Below are positions 4,481-41,792 of a stretch of 64,000 nt of DNA, in pieces. Made by a program: the position numbers and the translations under genes. Below the pieces are notes generated by a model. It was not told the origin of the DNA, searched no databases, and saw nothing but the letters and a program-made list of their open reading frames with translations. Every line of letters begins with the position of its first letter. Within the stretch, counting starts at the first letter, position 1. Source of the DNA: Algoriphagus lutimaris (lineage in GTDB: Bacteria > Bacteroidota > Bacteroidia > Cytophagales > Cyclobacteriaceae); NCBI RefSeq assembly GCF_017051705.1, contig NZ_JAFIDJ010000001.1:682001-746000 (forward strand), read 5' to 3'.

Positions 4481-4991
4481 ATACGATCCAGAAAAACATT
4501 ATCCCTCTGAAACAGAAAGCCGAGTTGTAATTCGATTTCAGGACTGTGATCCATTAAGGCATTTGAATAATGCGAAGTACTTTGACTATTTCTTCAATGC
4601 CAGAGAAGACCAAGTACCTAAACTATATGGGTTGGAGGTGATGGACTTAATAAGGAAATATAAAGCAGCATGGGTGGTTTATAACCATAATATCAGTTAT
4701 GTCAAGCCTGCCATGGTAGGGGAATGGGTGCGTATCATGAGTAGGATCATCTGGCACAATCAAAATACAATTGTCATTGAATATTACATGACAGATGATA
4801 GTAAAAAGCAATTAAAAACATTGCTTTGGACTACCATGCGCTATGTTACCCTGGCGGAAGGAAAGTCTACGGATCATGAAGGAGCAGTGGCTGATTTTCT
4901 GAAAGCTACCTCTGGAAACTTGGATATTTCTACCTTAAATATTAAGGATAGAGTTAAATTTTTGAATACTCAAATGAAAAATAGTAATTGA
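4473..4991 (+). CDS. 4HBT-type acyl-CoA thioesterase
   Basis: This 172-residue protein carries a hot-dog fold of the 4-hydroxybenzoyl-CoA thioesterase/FatB-like group. The active-site loop reads QDCDPLRHLNNAKYFDYFF, matching the family pattern in which an Asp is followed by HxNN. It is followed by the long central helix and the 'YNHNISYVKPAMVGEWV' strand. The product would hydrolyse an acyl-CoA thioester, substrate unknown. It begins inside the last codons of pncA, so it is the third gene of the pnc operon, although no metabolic link between NAD salvage and a thioesterase is obvious. The coding call is secure and the substrate is open. Confidence 0.85.
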   Translation: MFEYDPEKHYPSETESRVVIRFQDCDPLRHLNNAKYFDYFFNAREDQVPKLYGLEVMDLIRKYKAAWVVYNHNISYVKPAMVGEWVRIMSRIIWHNQNTIVIEYYMTDDSKKQLKTLLWTTMRYVTLAEGKSTDHEGAVADFLKATSGNLDISTLNIKDRVKFLNTQMKNSN

Positions 4992-5017
4992 TAAAAGTCA
5001 AAAATCTGTGTCTCAGC

Positions 5018-5047
5018 GAACAAAGCCTGTTCGTAAGCGTACAGGTT
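5018..5047 (+). promoter_or_regulatory. Distal upstream element of secreted paralog 1
   Basis: A block reading GAACAAAG, then TGTTC-N6-GTACA (5028-5043), then GGTT. The same block occurs before paralog 2 (6808-6836) and paralog 3 (7944-7972). In all three the dyad is TGTnC-N6-GTACA and lies 85-87 bases before a conserved TGTAAC. The likely role, by inference, is an enhancer site for a sigma-54 activator about 280 bp upstream of the promoter core. Its hairpin potential and run of T could also serve as a weak terminator for the pnc operon. Confidence 0.6.
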
Positions 5048-5124
5048 TTTTATTTTTAAGGGTTTTGTAATCAAGTGGTTATAGAAAAAATAAAAATTAT
5101 TTTTTCATAAAAAATATCATAAAG

Positions 5125-5216
5125 TGTAACCCCGATTTTTCGCAATTCTGTACAAATATGTCCGCATGTATGACAATCGAACAAGAAATTGTTTCAAAAC
5201 TGTGCGAATTTGTTCG
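5125..5216 (+). promoter_or_regulatory. Medial upstream element of secreted paralog 1
   Basis: The block opens with TGTAACC (5125) and, exactly 47 bases later, has GACA (5172) within ATGTCCGCATGTATGACA, followed by ATCGAAC. Paralogs 2 and 3 have TGTAAC and GACA at the same 47-base distance. TGTC-N9-GACA forms a dyad here and in paralog 2. Two further half-dyads of the TGTnC-N6-GTnCG kind lie at 5149-5164 and 5201-5216. Seen in sequence: conservation and spacing. Inferred: binding of an activator or second regulator. Confidence 0.6.
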
Positions 5217-5316
5217 GTTTAATGTCGTTACATCAAAATAATATTTTGTAGAAATTAAAATAAATTAAGAATAAGATTGTTTGAAATCGTTAGGTTTGGC
5301 AGGTTAAACATGTTTT

Positions 5317-5342
5317 GGTATGGGCTTGGCATCATAAAAAGC
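5317..5342 (+). promoter_or_regulatory. Sigma-54-like promoter of secreted paralog 1
   Basis: TTGGTATGGGCTTGGCA carries the GG-N10-GC hallmark of RpoN promoters (GG at 5317-5318, GC at 5329-5330). Twelve bases after the -12 C the predicted start is C5342, the first bases of a leader (CACAACACTAAACCAAC) conserved upstream of paralog 2. The 5' UTR would be 23 nt. The agreement of core, spacing and leader among three copies makes this a strong prediction, though no transcript data are available. Confidence 0.75.
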
Positions 5343-5364
5343 ACAACACTAAACCAACACTGTT

Positions 5365-5949
5365 ATGAAAACCCTATTCACTTTAGCTATGGCAGGCGCC
5401 CTTTCTTTTAGCGCTTTAGCCAACGCAGACGACGATTTAAGAGAATTGTCTGACGTAAATTCAAAATTCAAAAAAATCAATGTATTACTTAAAGAAGGTG
5501 TAGGTGATGCCAAAATTGCCATCATTGACATGAATGGTCATAAACTTCACCAAAGAAAGGTGCATGTAAAAAATGACGACCTCATGGTCCCTTATAATCT
5601 GGATGAATTGCCTTGTGGAGAATACCAGGTACGAATTTCTACTGACGACGAGGAAGTAGTGTACACGGTAGAAACAAAGGAAAGACCTATTCCTACTGAA
5701 GAATTGCCCTTAATGGCATATGGGAAACTATTAGATGATGATACGATCAATTTGGCTGTCATAGGACTTACCGAACCAGGTGTGGAAGTAAAAGTGAAAA
5801 CCGAAAAAGAAGGAAGTGTAATCTTTGAAGAGTATATTGACCAAGCGGAAGGTTTCAAAAAAGATTTTACTTTCAATGGGATTGACCCAAAGGATATTTA
5901 CCTAGAATTGACTGACGCCTTAGGAAGAACTAGAATCATTCATTTTTAG
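5365..5949 (+). CDS. Secreted two-repeat beta protein, paralog 1
   Basis: I do not recognise a named family. The 194-residue product starts with a Sec signal peptide (MKTLFTLAMAGALSFSALA, cleavage expected after ALA), then has an acidic stretch (DDDLRELSDV) and two similar beta-rich modules at about 35-105 and 115-194. Each module shows the pattern hydrophobic strand, x-x-G-V-x-x-x, strand, Gly, strand, as in Ig-like or T9SS-tail-like sandwiches ('LPCGEYQVRI' resembles a sorting-domain turn). The hinge ERPIPTEELPLMAYGK is almost invariant in the three paralogs, as is the C-terminal LGRTR. It is the first of three tandem copies, each with its own promoter, so dosage or variant expression may matter. 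A periplasmic or surface location is inferred from the signal peptide. Confidence 0.85.
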   Translation: MKTLFTLAMAGALSFSALANADDDLRELSDVNSKFKKINVLLKEGVGDAKIAIIDMNGHKLHQRKVHVKNDDLMVPYNLDELPCGEYQVRISTDDEEVVYTVETKERPIPTEELPLMAYGKLLDDDTINLAVIGLTEPGVEVKVKTEKEGSVIFEEYIDQAEGFKKDFTFNGIDPKDIYLELTDALGRTRIIHF

Positions 5950-5978
5950 GCTTTCAAACCTAGTTTAGTTGAAGAAAG

Positions 5979-6008
5979 AGCTTTAGCCTGCAGGTTAAAG
6001 CTTTTTTT
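5979..6008 (+). terminator. Rho-independent terminator of paralog 1
   Basis: AGCTTTAGCCTG at 5979-5990 pairs with CAGGTTAAAGCT at 5991-6002 with one G-U pair, followed by a run of T. It lies 30 bases after the stop of paralog 1, so paralog 1 is a single-gene unit. Confidence 0.75.
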
Positions 6009-6784
6009 ATGCATTATTTTGTTCTAGAATAAGTTGACAACAAATCGACTCATCATGGAAAATTGAAATATTGATCCTAAAAAACGAAATCAGCATAATT
6101 ATAACCTGGGCTTTAAATCATCACTTTTTTCCAAGTGAATTAAGACTAGTTGACTTTTATGTAAGCCTAGAGATTATATATGATTCAAGGGAATTCAACA
6201 CTTTAGGTTTCAATAACTTTGTAGTTTGGATTATCTCAATTTATTCATTTTATAAGCCTCGAAAGAAGAAAAAAATAATAGTCCGATATTAAACTTTTGA
6301 TATCCTTGAAACCGGTGAAGATGCCACGTTAAGACCCTCCAAAATTGTATGATTTATTGAGAGACCAATTCAGTAAGATGGAGTTGAAAAAAGGTGTTGA
6401 CAGACTTTCTGCCTATCTAAGTGATGAAAGTATGTAGATTCAACTTTTTATCAGATTCACGAAGATTACTCATTCATAGCATTGGTGGAGAAGCATCCAA
6501 ATTTGTCAAAAGATTTCAAACTAATCTGAATTGATTAAATCTTATCAATTTTTTCAAGTTTTTGCCAATTAAAGAATGGGAGGAATTAGAAACTCAGCTT
6601 TTTTATTTGAATCCACTATTTGAATCCGCTGTCCTTGATTTATATATAAAGTGAATTATTACTGTACTTAATACTATTTGATTAGATAAAGCCTCAAATA
6701 AGAAGGTAGGGTCGAGATTTGGTTTAACCTAGCTCGAATTCTTCTGAAAGAATCAAAAAAGAAAAGAAGATGAGACAATAACTT
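6009..6784. other. AT-rich intergenic stretch with a degenerate ORF
   Basis: This is the longest non-coding stretch of the window. Apart from the broken reading frame at 6333-6529, I see no gene, RNA or terminator in it. A TTG-initiated frame at 6071-6292 has low-complexity, lysine-rich content and no upstream signal, and is not accepted as a gene. The unusual length between two tandem paralogs suggests decay of an older gene. Confidence 0.5.
6333..6529 (+). pseudogene. Degenerate coding fragment with frameshift
   Basis: Bases 6333-6434 read as 34 sense codons with protein-like composition (for example RDQFSKMELKKGVDRLSAYL) and end at TAG 6435. Stepping back one base at 6434 opens a second frame of 31 codons (VDSTFYQIHEDYSFIALVEK and on) that ends at TGA 6527. 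The two pieces together look like one helical protein segment of about 65 residues interrupted by a frameshift, with no start codon upstream because TAA precedes it at 6330. I do not recognise the family. It may be a gene remnant or chance; confidence is low. Confidence 0.3.
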
Positions 6785-6836
6785 GTCCGAAAACTTGAAT
6801 GCTATCGGACGAAATATGTACAAAACCGTACAGTAT
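6785..6836 (+). promoter_or_regulatory. Distal upstream element of secreted paralog 2
   Basis: Contains two dyads: GTCCGA at 6785-6790 with TCGGAC at 6805-6810, and the perfect TGTAC-AAAACC-GTACA at 6817-6832. The second matches the TGTnC-N6-GTACA dyads of paralogs 1 and 3 in sequence and in distance (85 bases) to the downstream TGTAAC block. This copy has the most symmetrical half-sites and is the best one from which to define the operator. Confidence 0.6.
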
Positions 6837-6911
6837 ATTTTTGGTATCAGAAATTAAAAAATGATTTAGTAGAATTTCCGAAATTAAATTTTCTTAACAA
6901 GTATATTTTTA

Positions 6912-6972
6912 TGTAACCCTGAAATTCCGAAAAAATCAAAAAACATGTCCGCTTGTAAGACAGTCGAACAGT
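6912..6972 (+). promoter_or_regulatory. Medial upstream element of secreted paralog 2
   Basis: TGTAACCC at 6912 is followed 47 bases later by GACA (6959) in ATGTCCGCTTGTAAGACA and then GTCGAACAG. The match to the paralog 1 block is close over the last 25 bases. The distance from GACA to the -24 GG is 145 bases, identical to paralog 1. The conserved spacing argues for a protein-binding module rather than leftover homology. Confidence 0.6.
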
Positions 6973-7103
6973 AAAGTGAATTGGAAGTGGACAGATTTTG
7001 TTAAAAAATCATGAATTTTTCAAAATTAAATTTTGATAAACTGTTAAAAAAGTAAAATAAAAGAAGAATCCTTACATGTGGATTTGGTACAAGTTATTGG
7101 TTT

Positions 7104-7129
7104 GGTACGAGCTTCGCAATAAAGAAAGC
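7104..7129 (+). promoter_or_regulatory. Sigma-54-like promoter of secreted paralog 2
   Basis: TTGGTACGAGCTTCGCA has GG at 7104-7105 and GC at 7116-7117, separated by ten bases. The predicted start is C7129, the second base of GCACAACACTAAACCAAC, aligned exactly with the start predicted for paralog 1. The 5' UTR would be 22 nt. This promoter lies inside the upstream extension of the reading frame, which is why the ATG at 7151 is the true start. Confidence 0.75.
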
Positions 7130-7150
7130 ACAACACTAAACCAACAAGTT

Positions 7151-7738
7151 ATGAAAACCTTATTCACATTCGCAATGGCTAGCGCCTTATCTTTTAGCGC
7201 ATTGGCAGCAGACGCAAACGAAGATTTAAAAGACCTTTCAGCTGTAAACACCAACTATAAAAAGATCAATGTTACTTTAAAAGAGGGGGTTGGAAATGCA
7301 AAAATCACTATCCTTAACCAACAGGGAAAAAGCCTGAATCAAAAGAGGGTTCATGTAAAAGATGAAAGTATCATGGTTCCTTACAATATGAAAAATTTAC
7401 CGGCAGGTGAGTACCAAATTAAAATTGTAACGGATGAGGATGAAGTGATCTATTCTGTAAATACTACCGATTCGCCGATTCCTGTAGAAGACCTTCCTTT
7501 AATGGCCTATGGAAAAGTTGTAGACGAAAATACAGTAAGTCTTGCTGTAGTAGGATTGACAGAGCCAGGAGTAGAGGTGAAAGTATATTCCTCTGAAAGT
7601 GGTAAAGTCATCTATGAGGAAACTATTGACCAAGCAGATGGATTCAGAAAAGACTTCTCCTTTAAAGGAATGAATTCTGAAGAAGTATATCTTAAAGTAA
7701 AAGACAACTTAGGAAGAACAAGAACCATTTTCTTCTAG
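7151..7738 (+). CDS. Secreted two-repeat beta protein, paralog 2
   Basis: A 195-residue paralog of the genes at 5365 and 8277. The frame is open from 7076, but the start at 7151 is chosen because it gives the signal peptide MKTLFTFAMASALSFSALA shared with paralog 1 and because the predicted promoter and leader end just before it. The mature part has the same two beta-rich modules, the SPIPVEDLPLMAYGK hinge and the LGRTR ending. The acidic mature N-terminus (DANEDLKDLS) is also kept. It lacks the single Cys present in paralog 1 (PCGEY is PAGEY here). No family name is recognised; an exported structural or stress-related role is inferred only from location and promoter type. Confidence 0.85.
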   Translation: MKTLFTFAMASALSFSALAADANEDLKDLSAVNTNYKKINVTLKEGVGNAKITILNQQGKSLNQKRVHVKDESIMVPYNMKNLPAGEYQIKIVTDEDEVIYSVNTTDSPIPVEDLPLMAYGKVVDENTVSLAVVGLTEPGVEVKVYSSESGKVIYEETIDQADGFRKDFSFKGMNSEEVYLKVKDNLGRTRTIFF

Positions 7739-7761
7739 TATTAAGCCAACTTATTAGAAGT

Positions 7762-7792
7762 AAGCCTTGATCGTGTGATCAAGGCTTTTTTT
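7762..7792 (+). terminator. Rho-independent terminator of paralog 2
   Basis: AAGCCTTGATC at 7762-7772 pairs perfectly with GATCAAGGCTT at 7777-7787 across a four-base loop, followed by eight T. It ends the paralog 2 transcript about 25 bases after the stop codon. Confidence 0.85.
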
Positions 7793-7943
7793 TGTTTAAA
7801 AATTAAAACCATCAATTAATTTGTGTCAATTCAAAAAGCATGAAAATAATCAAAAACAAAGAGTGTTTAAAAAAATGACATTGAGATTGGAAAGTCCAGT
7901 TTTGATGGATTGATAATAGTATTTAGTAAAAATGAATCCTAGT

Positions 7944-7972
7944 GAACAAAGATGTGCAAATGCGTACAGGTT
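7944..7972 (+). promoter_or_regulatory. Distal upstream element of secreted paralog 3
   Basis: GAACAAAG is followed by TGTGC-AAATGC-GTACA (7953-7968) and GGTT, matching the distal blocks of paralogs 1 and 2. It is 85 bases before TGTAAC at 8048. Confidence 0.6.
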
Positions 7973-8047
7973 ATTCAATCGTCAATCAATTCACTCTTAT
8001 TTTTATTAATTTTTTTGTCTTAAAAAAATATAAAATAAGCGATAAAC

Positions 8048-8105
8048 TGTAACCTATGAATTTCCAAAACACACTGGAAATCGTTCGGTTTTATGACAGT
8101 ATACC
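8048..8105 (+). promoter_or_regulatory. Medial upstream element of secreted paralog 3
   Basis: TGTAACC at 8048 and GACA at 8095 are again 47 bases apart. The stretch between them has diverged: ATGTCCGC is replaced by ATCGTTCGG, which resembles the TTGTTCGG found at 5210-5217 before paralog 1. From GACA to the -24 GG is 134 bases, 11 fewer than in the other two copies, about one turn of the helix. Confidence 0.55.
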
Positions 8106-8228
8106 TCTATTTAGTATGTTTTTCATCAAGTTTGACTGATTTTATCAATAGGACTCCAAATAATATTCTGTTTTACTGTTGAAGGGTGGATTCCCTTTCT
8201 CATTGAAATTTCAGGAAGATTTAAACTT

Positions 8229-8254
8229 GGTACAGCGTTGGTAAAAAGATAAGC
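8229..8254 (+). promoter_or_regulatory. Sigma-54-like promoter of secreted paralog 3
   Basis: TTGGTACAGCGTTGGTA keeps the -24 GG (8229-8230) and the ten-base spacing but has GT instead of GC at 8241-8242, so it may be weaker. The predicted start C8254 again falls on a GCA trinucleotide, and the leader retains CTAAACCAAC before the ATG at 8277. Confidence 0.6.
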
Positions 8255-8276
8255 ATATATCTAAACCAACATTATT

Positions 8277-8858
8277 ATGAAAACTATTTTAGCATTAGCA
8301 ATGGCCAGCGTAATTTCTTTTAGCGCTCTTGCTGCAGTTGAAGACTTAAGAGAATTGTCAGGAGTAAGTTCCACATTCAAGAAAATCAATGTCACTCTAA
8401 AAAGTGAAGTAGGGGATGCCAAAATTTCCATCATGGATGAGTCAGGAAAAAAATTGGCAGATAGAAAAGTTCATTTGAAAAACACAGATGTAGTGGTTCC
8501 ATTCAACCTGAATAGTCTTCCAGAAGGAGACTACTTGGTGAAAATTGAGACCAATGAAGAAGAAGTCATTTATGAAGTAGAAACCATAGATAGACCGATC
8601 CCCACGAATCAACTTCCTTTGATGGCTTATGGAAAAGCAATAGATGACAATACAATCAATCTTTCTGTGATTGGTTTAACTAAGCCAGGAGTAAAAGTTG
8701 AAATTCATTCTGCATCATCAGGCGAGTTGATTCATGAAGAATTCATCAATCAGCCCGAGGCATTCAAACAAGATTTCTATTTAAAAAACCTCAAAGCAGA
8801 TGAGGTTTATTTGGAATTGACGGACGCATTGGGAAGAAGTAGAACCCTATTTTTCTAA
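8277..8858 (+). CDS. Secreted two-repeat beta protein, paralog 3
   Basis: The third tandem paralog, 193 residues. It has the signal peptide MKTILALAMASVISFSALA, a shorter acidic spacer (AVEDLRELSGV), two beta-rich modules, the hinge RPIPTNQLPLMAYGK and the ending LGRSRTLFF. Sequence similarity to paralogs 1 and 2 runs along the whole length, with no indels beyond the N-terminal spacer, indicating recent duplication under constraint. The C-terminal TDALGR is identical to paralog 1, suggesting that 1 and 3 are closest in that region. The function is unknown. Confidence 0.85.
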   Translation: MKTILALAMASVISFSALAAVEDLRELSGVSSTFKKINVTLKSEVGDAKISIMDESGKKLADRKVHLKNTDVVVPFNLNSLPEGDYLVKIETNEEEVIYEVETIDRPIPTNQLPLMAYGKAIDDNTINLSVIGLTKPGVKVEIHSASSGELIHEEFINQPEAFKQDFYLKNLKADEVYLELTDALGRSRTLFF

Positions 8859-8877
8859 ATTATTCAAATATCACAGT

Positions 8878-8909
8878 AAAAAGCTCCCGAATTAATTCGG
8901 GAGCTTTTT
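8878..8909. terminator. Bidirectional terminator
   Basis: AAAAAGCTCCCGAA and TTCGGGAGCTTTTT form a long perfect hairpin that can terminate transcripts from both paralog 3 and the convergent ADP-ribosylglycohydrolase operon. The stop codon of the latter (8892-8894) lies in the middle of the hairpin, so the end of that CDS is part of the terminator. Confidence 0.9.
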
Positions 8910-40376: not shown

Positions 40377-41792
40377 ATGGCAAAGATTCTTGTAATCGAT
40401 GACAATATTGACATTTGCCAATTATTAGAGCGTTTTTTAACTAAAAAAGGCTACGATGTCGAAACCACTATTTCAGGTAAAAACGGTCTTGAAATGGTTA
40501 AAAACACGTACTATGACCTAATTTTTTGTGATTTTAAATTACGGGATATGGAGGGGCGAGATGTATTGGCTAGAGTACGAATCATTTCTCCTGGAACCCA
40601 AGTAGCTATTATTACCGGGTATGCGGATGTGAAAATTGCAGTTGAAGTTATAAAAAAAGGAGCGTTTGATTACATCACTAAACCACTGATTCCAGATGAA
40701 ATCATCAGTTTAATTGAACGGGCCTTGGCAGTTCAAAAAGAGACAAAAGTAAATACAGTCACTTTAGACAAAGCCGAAACAGAAGCAAATAAGAAGGGCC
40801 AAAAGACAGAGGCTAAATCTGATTTTTTGAAAGGAACAGGGAAGGAATCCAAAAAACTTTATAAGGAAGTAAAATTGGTAGCACCTACCAATTTAAGTGT
40901 AGTTATTTACGGAGAAAGTGGGGCTGGTAAAGAAAACATAGCCCGCTTAATTCATGATCAAAGTGAAAGAGCAGGGAAACCTTTCATAGCAGTGGATTGC
41001 GGAGCTCTAACCAAAGAATTAGCCGGTAGCGAACTCTGGGGTCATGAAAAAGGATCATTTACAGGAGCTCATGCAGAAAAACCAGGCCAATTTGAATTGG
41101 CGAATGGAGGAACCATATTCCTAGATGAAATTTCTAATTTATCTTATGAGGTACAAGTGGGTTTGTTGAGATTGGTCCAAGAAAGAAAATTAAGAAGAAT
41201 AGGTGGGACGAAGGATAAATCCATTGATGTTCGAATTATAGTAGCTTCTAATGAGGACCTTCGTAAGGAAGTTCAGGAAAATAAATTCCGAGAGGATTTG
41301 TATTTCAGATTCAACGAATTTAGTATTACTGTTCCTCCTTTAAGAGAAAGAAAAGACGATATAGAAGCATTTGCATTGCACTTCCTCCACCTATCCAATG
41401 AAGAATTGAAAAAATCCGTGAAAGGGTTCGATGATGAGGTAATGAAGGTGTTTAATGAATATGTTTGGCCAGGTAATCTTCGTGAAATGAGGAATGTGAT
41501 CAGAAGGGCAACTCTCCTAACCGATGGTGAAAAAATGACCGTTTCAGCATTACCTCCAGAAGTAGTTTATGCTCGAAAATTTAATTTTACTGATTCAGGA
41601 TCTGAATCAAAAAGTAACAGATCATCTTCAAACCATACCCCCGTCAACTTGAAAGATGCAGCTGCTGAAGCTGAAGCTGAAGTTTTGAGGAAGGTATTAG
41701 AAGAAGTAAAATATAATCGGACCAAAGCTGCCAAGCAATTGGGGATCGATCGGAAAACATTATTCAATAAAATGAAACAATACGATTTATAA
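40377..41792 (+). CDS. Sigma-54-dependent NtrC-family response regulator
   Basis: A 471-residue enhancer-binding protein. Receiver at 1-120 with Asp52 in IFCDFKLRD, AAA+ domain at about 145-390 with Walker A GESGAGKE at 179-186, the sigma-54 contact loop GSFTGA at 226-231 (GAFTGA in most), Walker B GGTIFLDEI and arginine finger region REDLYFRFNEF, then a Fis-type helix-turn-helix at about 430-471 (YNRTKAAKQLGIDRKTLFNK). It activates RpoN-dependent promoters by ATP hydrolysis. Sigma-54-like promoters stand directly downstream before dps and, elsewhere in the window, before the three secreted paralogs, so it is a candidate for their activator. The link is inference. Confidence 0.95.
   Translation: MAKILVIDDNIDICQLLERFLTKKGYDVETTISGKNGLEMVKNTYYDLIFCDFKLRDMEGRDVLARVRIISPGTQVAIITGYADVKIAVEVIKKGAFDYITKPLIPDEIISLIERALAVQKETKVNTVTLDKAETEANKKGQKTEAKSDFLKGTGKESKKLYKEVKLVAPTNLSVVIYGESGAGKENIARLIHDQSERAGKPFIAVDCGALTKELAGSELWGHEKGSFTGAHAEKPGQFELANGGTIFLDEISNLSYEVQVGLLRLVQERKLRRIGGTKDKSIDVRIIVASNEDLRKEVQENKFREDLYFRFNEFSITVPPLRERKDDIEAFALHFLHLSNEELKKSVKGFDDEVMKVFNEYVWPGNLREMRNVIRRATLLTDGEKMTVSALPPEVVYARKFNFTDSGSESKSNRSSSNHTPVNLKDAAAEAEAEVLRKVLEEVKYNRTKAAKQLGIDRKTLFNKMKQYDL

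Follow-up and report, generated by a model that had tools for sequence, protein, structure and literature searches.

Introduction

In the Bacteroidota, the control of exported proteins by sigma-54 is already known. In Flavobacterium psychrophilum, according to the available text of the report on its sigma-54 regulon, -24/-12 promoters stand before genes for envelope-stress, gliding and unknown-function exported proteins (PMC9723704). More generally, a link between sigma-54 and the exterior of the bacterial cell has been drawn (PMC3162934, available text). Activators of the NtrC/NtrX type work from upstream activating sequences. Such sequences and DNA looping have been described (PMC7175178, available text). 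In Porphyromonas gingivalis, PorA, a small exported protein with a sorting domain, alters the expression of type IX secretion system (T9SS) genes through a two-component system (PMC7712824, available text). Here, we analysed a 64,000-nucleotide stretch of the 4.7-Mb genome of Algoriphagus lutimaris (G000; C1:682001-746000), referred to below as the window, in which three tandem genes for small, exported-looking proteins each follow a putative sigma-54-like promoter with a long and rigid upstream layout.

Similar to the F. psychrophilum regulon, this locus belongs to the Bacteroidota and has -24/-12-type promoters before exported proteins; however, the promoter section of that report names no activator sites or long fixed architecture, whereas here two site-carrying regulator genes are proposed (PMC9723704). 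The products of these genes, L076 and L075, share with the NtrC/NtrX type the receiver-AAA+-Fis organization, a paired kinase, TGT-N10-ACA dyads and sites at their own genes. They differ from it in their contact loops (GAFTDA and GSFTDA), and the sites at the promoters differ in reaching nearly 300 bp upstream, in their rigid spacing and in an extra TGYAACC box. The TGT-N10-ACA spacing is also that of NifA sites. The likeness to PorA is that a T9SS sorting-type domain occurs in a small exported protein, for which PorA provides a precedent of T9SS gene control; in the available text on PorA, that domain is C-terminal and the effect runs through PorXY-SigP (PMC7712824), whereas here the similar stretch falls within the N-terminal half and the control resembles that of sigma-54. 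A literature search that left subscription papers mostly uncovered found no Bacteroidota sigma-54 activator binding site, no such long rigid layout, and nothing combining Algoriphagus with sigma-54.

Three promoters share one layout

An earlier note on this DNA had reported an ordered series of elements upstream of the three genes, and all of them were located (Table 1). The dyad, given there as TGTnC-N6-GTACA, was found as TGTNC-N6-GNACA at 5028-5043, 6817-6832 and 7953-7968. From the start of CGTACAG to that of TGTAAC we counted 87, 85 and 85 bases (5038/5125, 6827/6912 and 7963/8048), within the claimed range of 85-87, and GACA (5172, 6959 and 8095) begins 47 bases past TGTAAC in all three cases, as had been claimed. 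The GG-N10-G(C/T) cores are TTGGTATGGGCTTGGC (5315), TTGGTACGAGCTTCGC (7102) and TTGGTACAGCGTTGGT (8227), ending in GC, GC and GT, and the GCA of the leader lies past each core, at 5341, 7128 and 8253. The distance from TGTAAC to the core is 190, 190 and 179 bases, promoter 3 being 11 bp shorter.

A strict form of the core, TTGGTAY-N4-TT-N-G(C/T), matched three times on both strands of the 64 kb, only at these three genes. The combination of the dyad, 65-94 bases and TGYAAC matched three times in the whole genome, all at these genes, as compared to 0 and 1 matches for the reversed-pattern control. As a correction to the coordinated regulon proposed earlier, the full layout is restricted in this genome to the three promoters. 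A relaxed dyad pattern found 11 places in the genome (3 in the reversed control): the three promoters, porV, the L075 intergenic region and six more, of which three lie inside open reading frames (ORFs; C1:753823, C8:296967 and C30:56420) and three between ORFs (C1:2343200, C8:479709 and C8:1547621). The core pattern alone found 10 places, with 3 in its control, and two of the three family cores were among them.

Table 1. Features of the window, in window coordinates
Feature	Position	Strand	Remarks
Promoter 1 distal block	5007-5044	+	two adjoining TGT-N10-ACA dyads, 21 bp apart; the second, 5028-5043, is TGTTCGTAAGCGTACA
Promoter 1 TGTAACC box (TGYAACC)	5125-5131	+	
Promoter 1 proximal dyad	5159-5175	+	TGT-N11-ACA, TGTCCGCATGTATGACA; includes the GACA of the earlier note
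Promoter 1 sigma-54-like -24/-12 core	5315-5331	+	TTGGTATGGGCTTGGCA; expected start about 5341
Gene 1 leader box	5350-5358	+	TAAACCAAC, before the ATG
Family gene 1	5365-5949	+	194 amino acids; signal-peptide-like start; DUF3244 match
Promoter 2 distal dyad	6817-6832	+	TGTACAAAACCGTACA
Promoter 2 TGTAACC box	6912-6918	+	
Promoter 2 proximal dyad	6946-6962	+	TGTCCGCTTGTAAGACA
Promoter 2 sigma-54-like core	7102-7118	+	TTGGTACGAGCTTCGCA
Gene 2 leader box	7137-7145	+	TAAACCAAC
Family gene 2	7151-7738	+	195 amino acids from the ATG at 7151; a longer ORF begins at 7076
Terminator-like hairpin and T run, 3' of gene 2	7762-7787	+	2 such hairpins in the region against 1.9 expected after shuffling
Promoter 3 distal dyad	7953-7968	+	TGTGCAAATGCGTACA
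Promoter 3 TGTAACC box	8048-8054	+	
Promoter 3 proximal site	8082-8098	+	left half degenerate, right half GACA
Promoter 3 sigma-54-like core	8227-8243	+	TTGGTACAGCGTTGGTA; GT at -12
Gene 3 leader box	8262-8270	+	TAAACCAAC
Family gene 3	8277-8858	+	193 amino acids; over the T9SS type A sorting-domain cut-off, residues 39-95
Sigma-54 activator gene	40377-41792	+	considered as the regulator, rejected

The layout is conserved across species

The collected loci with family genes gave 123 gene starts, of which three were cut short and dropped. The 120 remaining rows comprised 93 from Algoriphagus and 27 from other genera, and some of them represent one promoter fetched twice. A strict set (E < 1e-40, with three core-less and all identical regions removed) held 98 regions, and Algoriphagus supplied 87 of these. 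Two properties of this material bear on what follows. Fallback patterns were in use for the core, and pattern searches located the main dyad, TGYAAC and the core, which biases their counts and identities upward; the sequences are also related, so that the counts are not independent.

The core, the dyad and TGYAACC were found in 91, 90 and 80 of the 93 Algoriphagus rows, and in 23, 15 and 15 of the 27 rows from other genera, where the layout recurs upstream of family genes. In the distinct Algoriphagus regions, CGTACAG occurred on either strand within 400 bases in 70 of 87 (1.1 expected), and TGTNC-N6-GNACA within 480 bases in 86 of 87 (0.0 expected from 10 shuffles). Of 86 regions, 78 had TGYAAC at a distance of 90-102 bases from the dyad, and in these it was always at 95-97 bases; the other eight had none in that 90-102-base interval. 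Identity was measured in the 72 of 87 regions that have the modal spacing. It was 0.79 for the inner distal dyad, 0.92 for TGYAACC and 0.79 for the core, values raised by the search patterns; among elements that did not serve as anchors, it was 0.65 for the outer distal dyad and 0.58 for the proximal dyad. An AT-rich element reached 0.60, as compared to 0.40 expected from its composition, and four spacer stretches 0.30-0.36, as compared to 0.27-0.29 expected.

The earlier note had argued that spacing retained in diverged DNA points to function, and had named the loss of blocks and spacing in orthologous loci as the outcome that would speak against it. On the three local copies the argument is weak, since one of the spacers agrees at 51 of 95 bases between promoters 1 and 2, but across species it is strong, and the orthologous loci have kept both blocks and spacing.

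The leader box AAACCAAC was present in 88 of 93 Algoriphagus rows, although its distance from the core varies, and in 0 of 27 rows from other genera. Its position just 5' of the ATG, where the window has TAAACCAAC, would fit a translation or mRNA element. At loci of other genera (L004-L020), the distal site commonly forms an almost perfect, terminator-like palindrome that has a long T run and lies at a fixed distance from the promoter; it may do double duty. In an order-wide search of 291 genomes, 87 had a match; outside the bacterial family of A. lutimaris these looked like background by reading, and no formal count was made.

The promoters resemble sigma-54 promoters

The reading of these elements as sigma-54-like promoters with a common upstream architecture, serving an exported protein family, is supported because the comparative footprint is joined by rpoN matches in 71 of 73 genomes of the genus. 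A. lutimaris itself has rpoN, and 79 of 91 Algoriphagus rows show GC at the -12 position of the family-gene core. Some observations weigh against this reading. Only 5 of 23 rows from other genera have GC at -12, because of which the sigma-54 assignment is weaker there, and two genomes carry the family yet gave no rpoN match (G133, 85% complete, and G102, 99% complete with 6% contamination). On the whole, the interpretation given in the earlier note is partly supported.

Elsewhere in the genome, a good sigma-54-like core, TTGGCACAGGCTTCGCA, lies at C1:52087 (L064, 1501-1517, - strand) before a gene for a small exported-looking protein without Pfam match, which is itself preceded by a TAAACCAA leader box; a sigma-54 activator gene then follows. 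The core fits, but no dyad was seen on reading 800 bases around it, and we therefore did not assign this promoter to the regulon.

Several shifts in spacing are close to one helical turn

The distance from dyad to core is mostly 285-291 bases in Algoriphagus and 297-300 in most rows from other genera. In the alignment, 10 extra bases separate TGYAACC from the proximal dyad in the latter; this interval spans 34-35 bases in Algoriphagus and 43-45 in 11 of 13 rows from other genera (56 and 35 in the other two). Algoriphagus itself also shows shifts, of -11 in promoter 3 and the promoter most closely related to it, of -11/-12 in L048 and of +10 in L107. Several of the larger shifts measure 10-12 bp, about one helical turn. 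Sigma-54 enhancers depend on the helical face, and these shifts, which represent few independent events, are suggestive of DNA looping that favours one helical face. Other shifts do not fit such phasing: one clade is 18-19 bases shorter, L089 is about 35 shorter, and L017 is 8 shorter between the proximal dyad and the core.

Two candidate regulators carry the sites

PF00158, the AAA+ domain of sigma-54 activators, gave ten matches in the A. lutimaris genome, six of them strong. Among these six, only L075 and L076 have TGTNCG/CGNACA half-sites within 450 bp upstream. Both consist of a receiver (PF00072), the AAA+ domain and a Fis-type helix-turn-helix (HTH; PF02954), and both adjoin a kinase ORF with HATPase_c. 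They have in common the helix LTR-S/A-SLYRRLEKYGL, which is absent from L077, L078 and L079; L074, by reading, has no HTH in its reading frame. Between L075 and a divergent HlyD-like gene, behind which lies an ABC-type gene, we found TGTTCGCCTGCGAACA followed by the sigma-54-like TGGCATACCATTTGG. L076 and L075 are, on this evidence, the best candidates for binding the dyads.

Orthologues of L076, 82-91% identical, were fetched from 12 genomes of other genera, all of them chosen among family-carrying genomes. A full dyad was present within 300 bp upstream of 9 of the 12 (0.04 expected). Half-sites often lie near -128, -107 and -97, and TGGCAY stands near -40 ahead of all 12 genes. In one genome (G045), the L076-type gene lies 3.7 kb downstream of a family gene (L221).

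Other features of the two candidates speak against a simple assignment. Upstream of L076 in A. lutimaris there are half-sites, no full dyad, and CC at -12, and among the 12 orthologues the core beside the gene shows GC at -12 in no more than 4 (TC in 6, AC in 1, GT in 1). Typical sigma-54 activators have the contact loop GAFTGA. This loop is GAFTDA in L076 and GSFTDA in L075, and among the L076 orthologues it is G(A/S)FTDA in 8 of 12, the other 4 giving no match to GxFTxA; in L077, L078 and L079 it is G(A/S)FTGA. Because the loop is altered and so few of the 12 cores have GC, we lower the claim that L076 and L075 drive sigma-54, and because their loop is not GAFTGA, we treat them as candidates and do not file them as members of the NtrC/NtrX type. 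The altered loop might explain a role at other promoters.

A dyad also precedes porV

The dyad search led to porV (PF19572, 34.2 bits, cut-off 27), which is followed by what reads as a porU-like ORF. Of 19 porV-carrying Algoriphagus genomes, 18 have the dyad within about 500 bases before the gene (0.09 expected); in the nineteenth region, L186, it occurs only about 1.4 kb upstream. The porV dyad is 80% identical, a value raised by the pattern, and its flanks 33%. In 15 of the 18 regions, the dyad stands 73-77 bases from a TATTTTG-like box, and this promoter does not look like sigma-54, which counts against the mechanism proposed in the Discussion. The box resembles the TAnnTTG promoter type described for F. 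psychrophilum in the available text (PMC9723704). At L178 (about 1500), porV is divergent, by reading, from a PadR-like gene that is followed by a PspC-like gene, and the side towards PadR carries a long conserved motif.

In a sample of 30 genomes of the genus, 19 had porV, all 19 with the family, and 11 small genomes lacking porV had no strong family match (G141 had a weak one, 1.1e-5). This co-occurrence is weak and may reflect one reduced clade. The eleven genomes (G130, G136, G138, G140, G141, G152, G156-G158, G160 and G161) measure 2.2-2.8 Mb, are 67-91% complete, and each has an rpoN match.

The tandem proteins gave 17.9, 18.7 and 25.4 bits with TIGR04183 (cut-off 23) and 18.8, 17.1 and 27.3 bits with PF18962 (cut-off 27), in the order of their genes. 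The matching stretch, residues 39-98 of about 194, lies in the N-terminal half and not at the C-terminus. Taken with the porV dyad, a link to type IX secretion is suggested.

The protein family and its setting

All three proteins begin, by reading, with a signal-peptide-like segment. Identity to the nearest named relatives, in three Algoriphagus species, was 47-54%. The DUF3244 profile (PF11589, cut-off 25 bits) scored 30.6, 33.3 and 37.6 bits, over the cut-off for all three, with the best stretch confined to residues 35-101 of about 194. The earlier note had called the exported family undescribed; in view of the DUF3244 matches it is not wholly so, and is better called a little-studied exported family. 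A sequence search of the PDB returned weak matches only (best E 0.0038).

A family match was present in 59 of 73 genomes of the genus, 56 strong and three weak only (G141, G159 and G163); of the 51 good Algoriphagus genomes, 50 had one. Sampling 98 genomes across the bacterial family gave 61 with a match, although many of these matches were weak. At L235, the family gene lies between thioesterase-like and ADP-ribosylglycohydrolase-like genes (names by reading), as in the window; at L236, only the thioesterase-like side matches. Because these loci share neighbours with the window, the position is old and the tandem copies are probably local in origin. Between gene 1 and the promoter 2 dyad (5950-6816), about 870 bp hold no listed ORF of at least 80 amino acids and may contain decayed sequence.

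Discussion

Layout, conservation, uniqueness in the genome and the shared sites at two regulator genes can be read directly from the DNA. From them we infer a mechanism in which each of the three genes would have its own sigma-54 promoter, with RpoN-RNA polymerase sitting on the TTGGTAY-N4-TTNGCA core. A two-component regulator of NtrC/NtrX kind, L076 (locus L234) or its paralogue L075 (locus L233), would bind dyads of both kinds, TGT-N10-ACA and TGT-N11-ACA, which lie some 130-300 bp upstream. Looping of the DNA would bring the regulator to the polymerase, and the geometry of the loop would fix the spacing of the blocks. The small exported proteins would be produced when the partner sensor kinase detects a signal, perhaps from the envelope, and L076 probably controls itself as well, because its gene has the same sites. 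We give this account, with RpoN dependence, the binder, looping, the signal and the function of the proteins all taken together, about an even chance of being right.

The likeness of the three promoters could have arisen by tandem duplication without function, since the genes are tandem paralogues and copies 1 and 2 share spacer bases as noted above. However, the same layout with diverged spacers occurs in other species and genera; this cross-species spacing argues against duplication alone, and the probability of that reading appears next to negligible. A second reading, that the upstream block is kept for an RNA, such as a leader or small RNA, rather than for protein binding, draws on the distal palindrome and T run, which in several other genera read like AACCTGTACG-N4-CGTACAGGTTTTTTT and resemble a terminator. 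This is very improbable: no Rfam match came near threshold in window 4900-8900, no consensus pair or conserved fold was found in 37 aligned regions (37 of the 76 listed), and the TGT/ACA letters, which served as the anchor, are more constant than the outer stem and the T run. With both the Rfam scan and the consensus fold empty, we rejected the RNA explanation.

The remaining alternatives concern the protein that acts at these sites. The sigma-54 activator encoded in the window has a receiver, AAA+ domain and HTH, it and the activator at C1:50657 have the usual loops GSFTGA and GAFTGA, and the latter adjoins another sigma-54-like promoter. Neither has half-sites upstream, however, and in G082, which has both family and layout, the best match to the window activator (3.9e-82) is near that of the distant A. 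lutimaris paralogue L076 (6.8e-84) and far from that of the C1:50657 activator (1.1e-132). The window activator was rejected as a universal regulator, G082 having no close orthologue, and it is highly improbable that either of these two is the regulator. It is rather unlikely that L076 and L075 bind the dyads, including that of porV, as co-regulators with a changed loop that do not drive sigma-54, while a usual-loop activator such as the receiver-less L077 opens the promoters; GSFTGA in L077 as against GAFTDA/GSFTDA, and a porV dyad without sigma-54 core, would fit this, but L077 has no half-sites upstream. CRP/FNR-type sites have five-base arms six bases apart, and another dimeric regulator of that kind could bind the dyads and act on sigma-54 and other promoters alike. 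The recurrent porV dyad and its near-constant distance from the TATTTTG-like box favour such a protein, whereas the half-sites at two activator genes with a common recognition helix, in a comparison confined to activator genes, argue against it, and we consider it unlikely. The sigma-54 account with L076 and L075 as candidate binders is the one that we prefer.

A wider and distinctly speculative extension, which we regard as improbable, is that a sigma-54-type two-component circuit watches type IX secretion. The exported proteins would mimic the T9SS sorting domain and, in the periplasm or at the surface, report the secretion load, and the altered-loop regulator would set the level of porV and its own level through two kinds of promoter, as a counterpart of the PorA-PorXY-SigP loop.

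Sequence comparison alone has thus predicted an activator site, named two regulators as candidates and pointed to a likely loop of self-control, and evolution hints at how DNA looping might be probed. The locus offers an entry point to an exported protein family of Algoriphagus and perhaps to a further layer of type IX secretion control.

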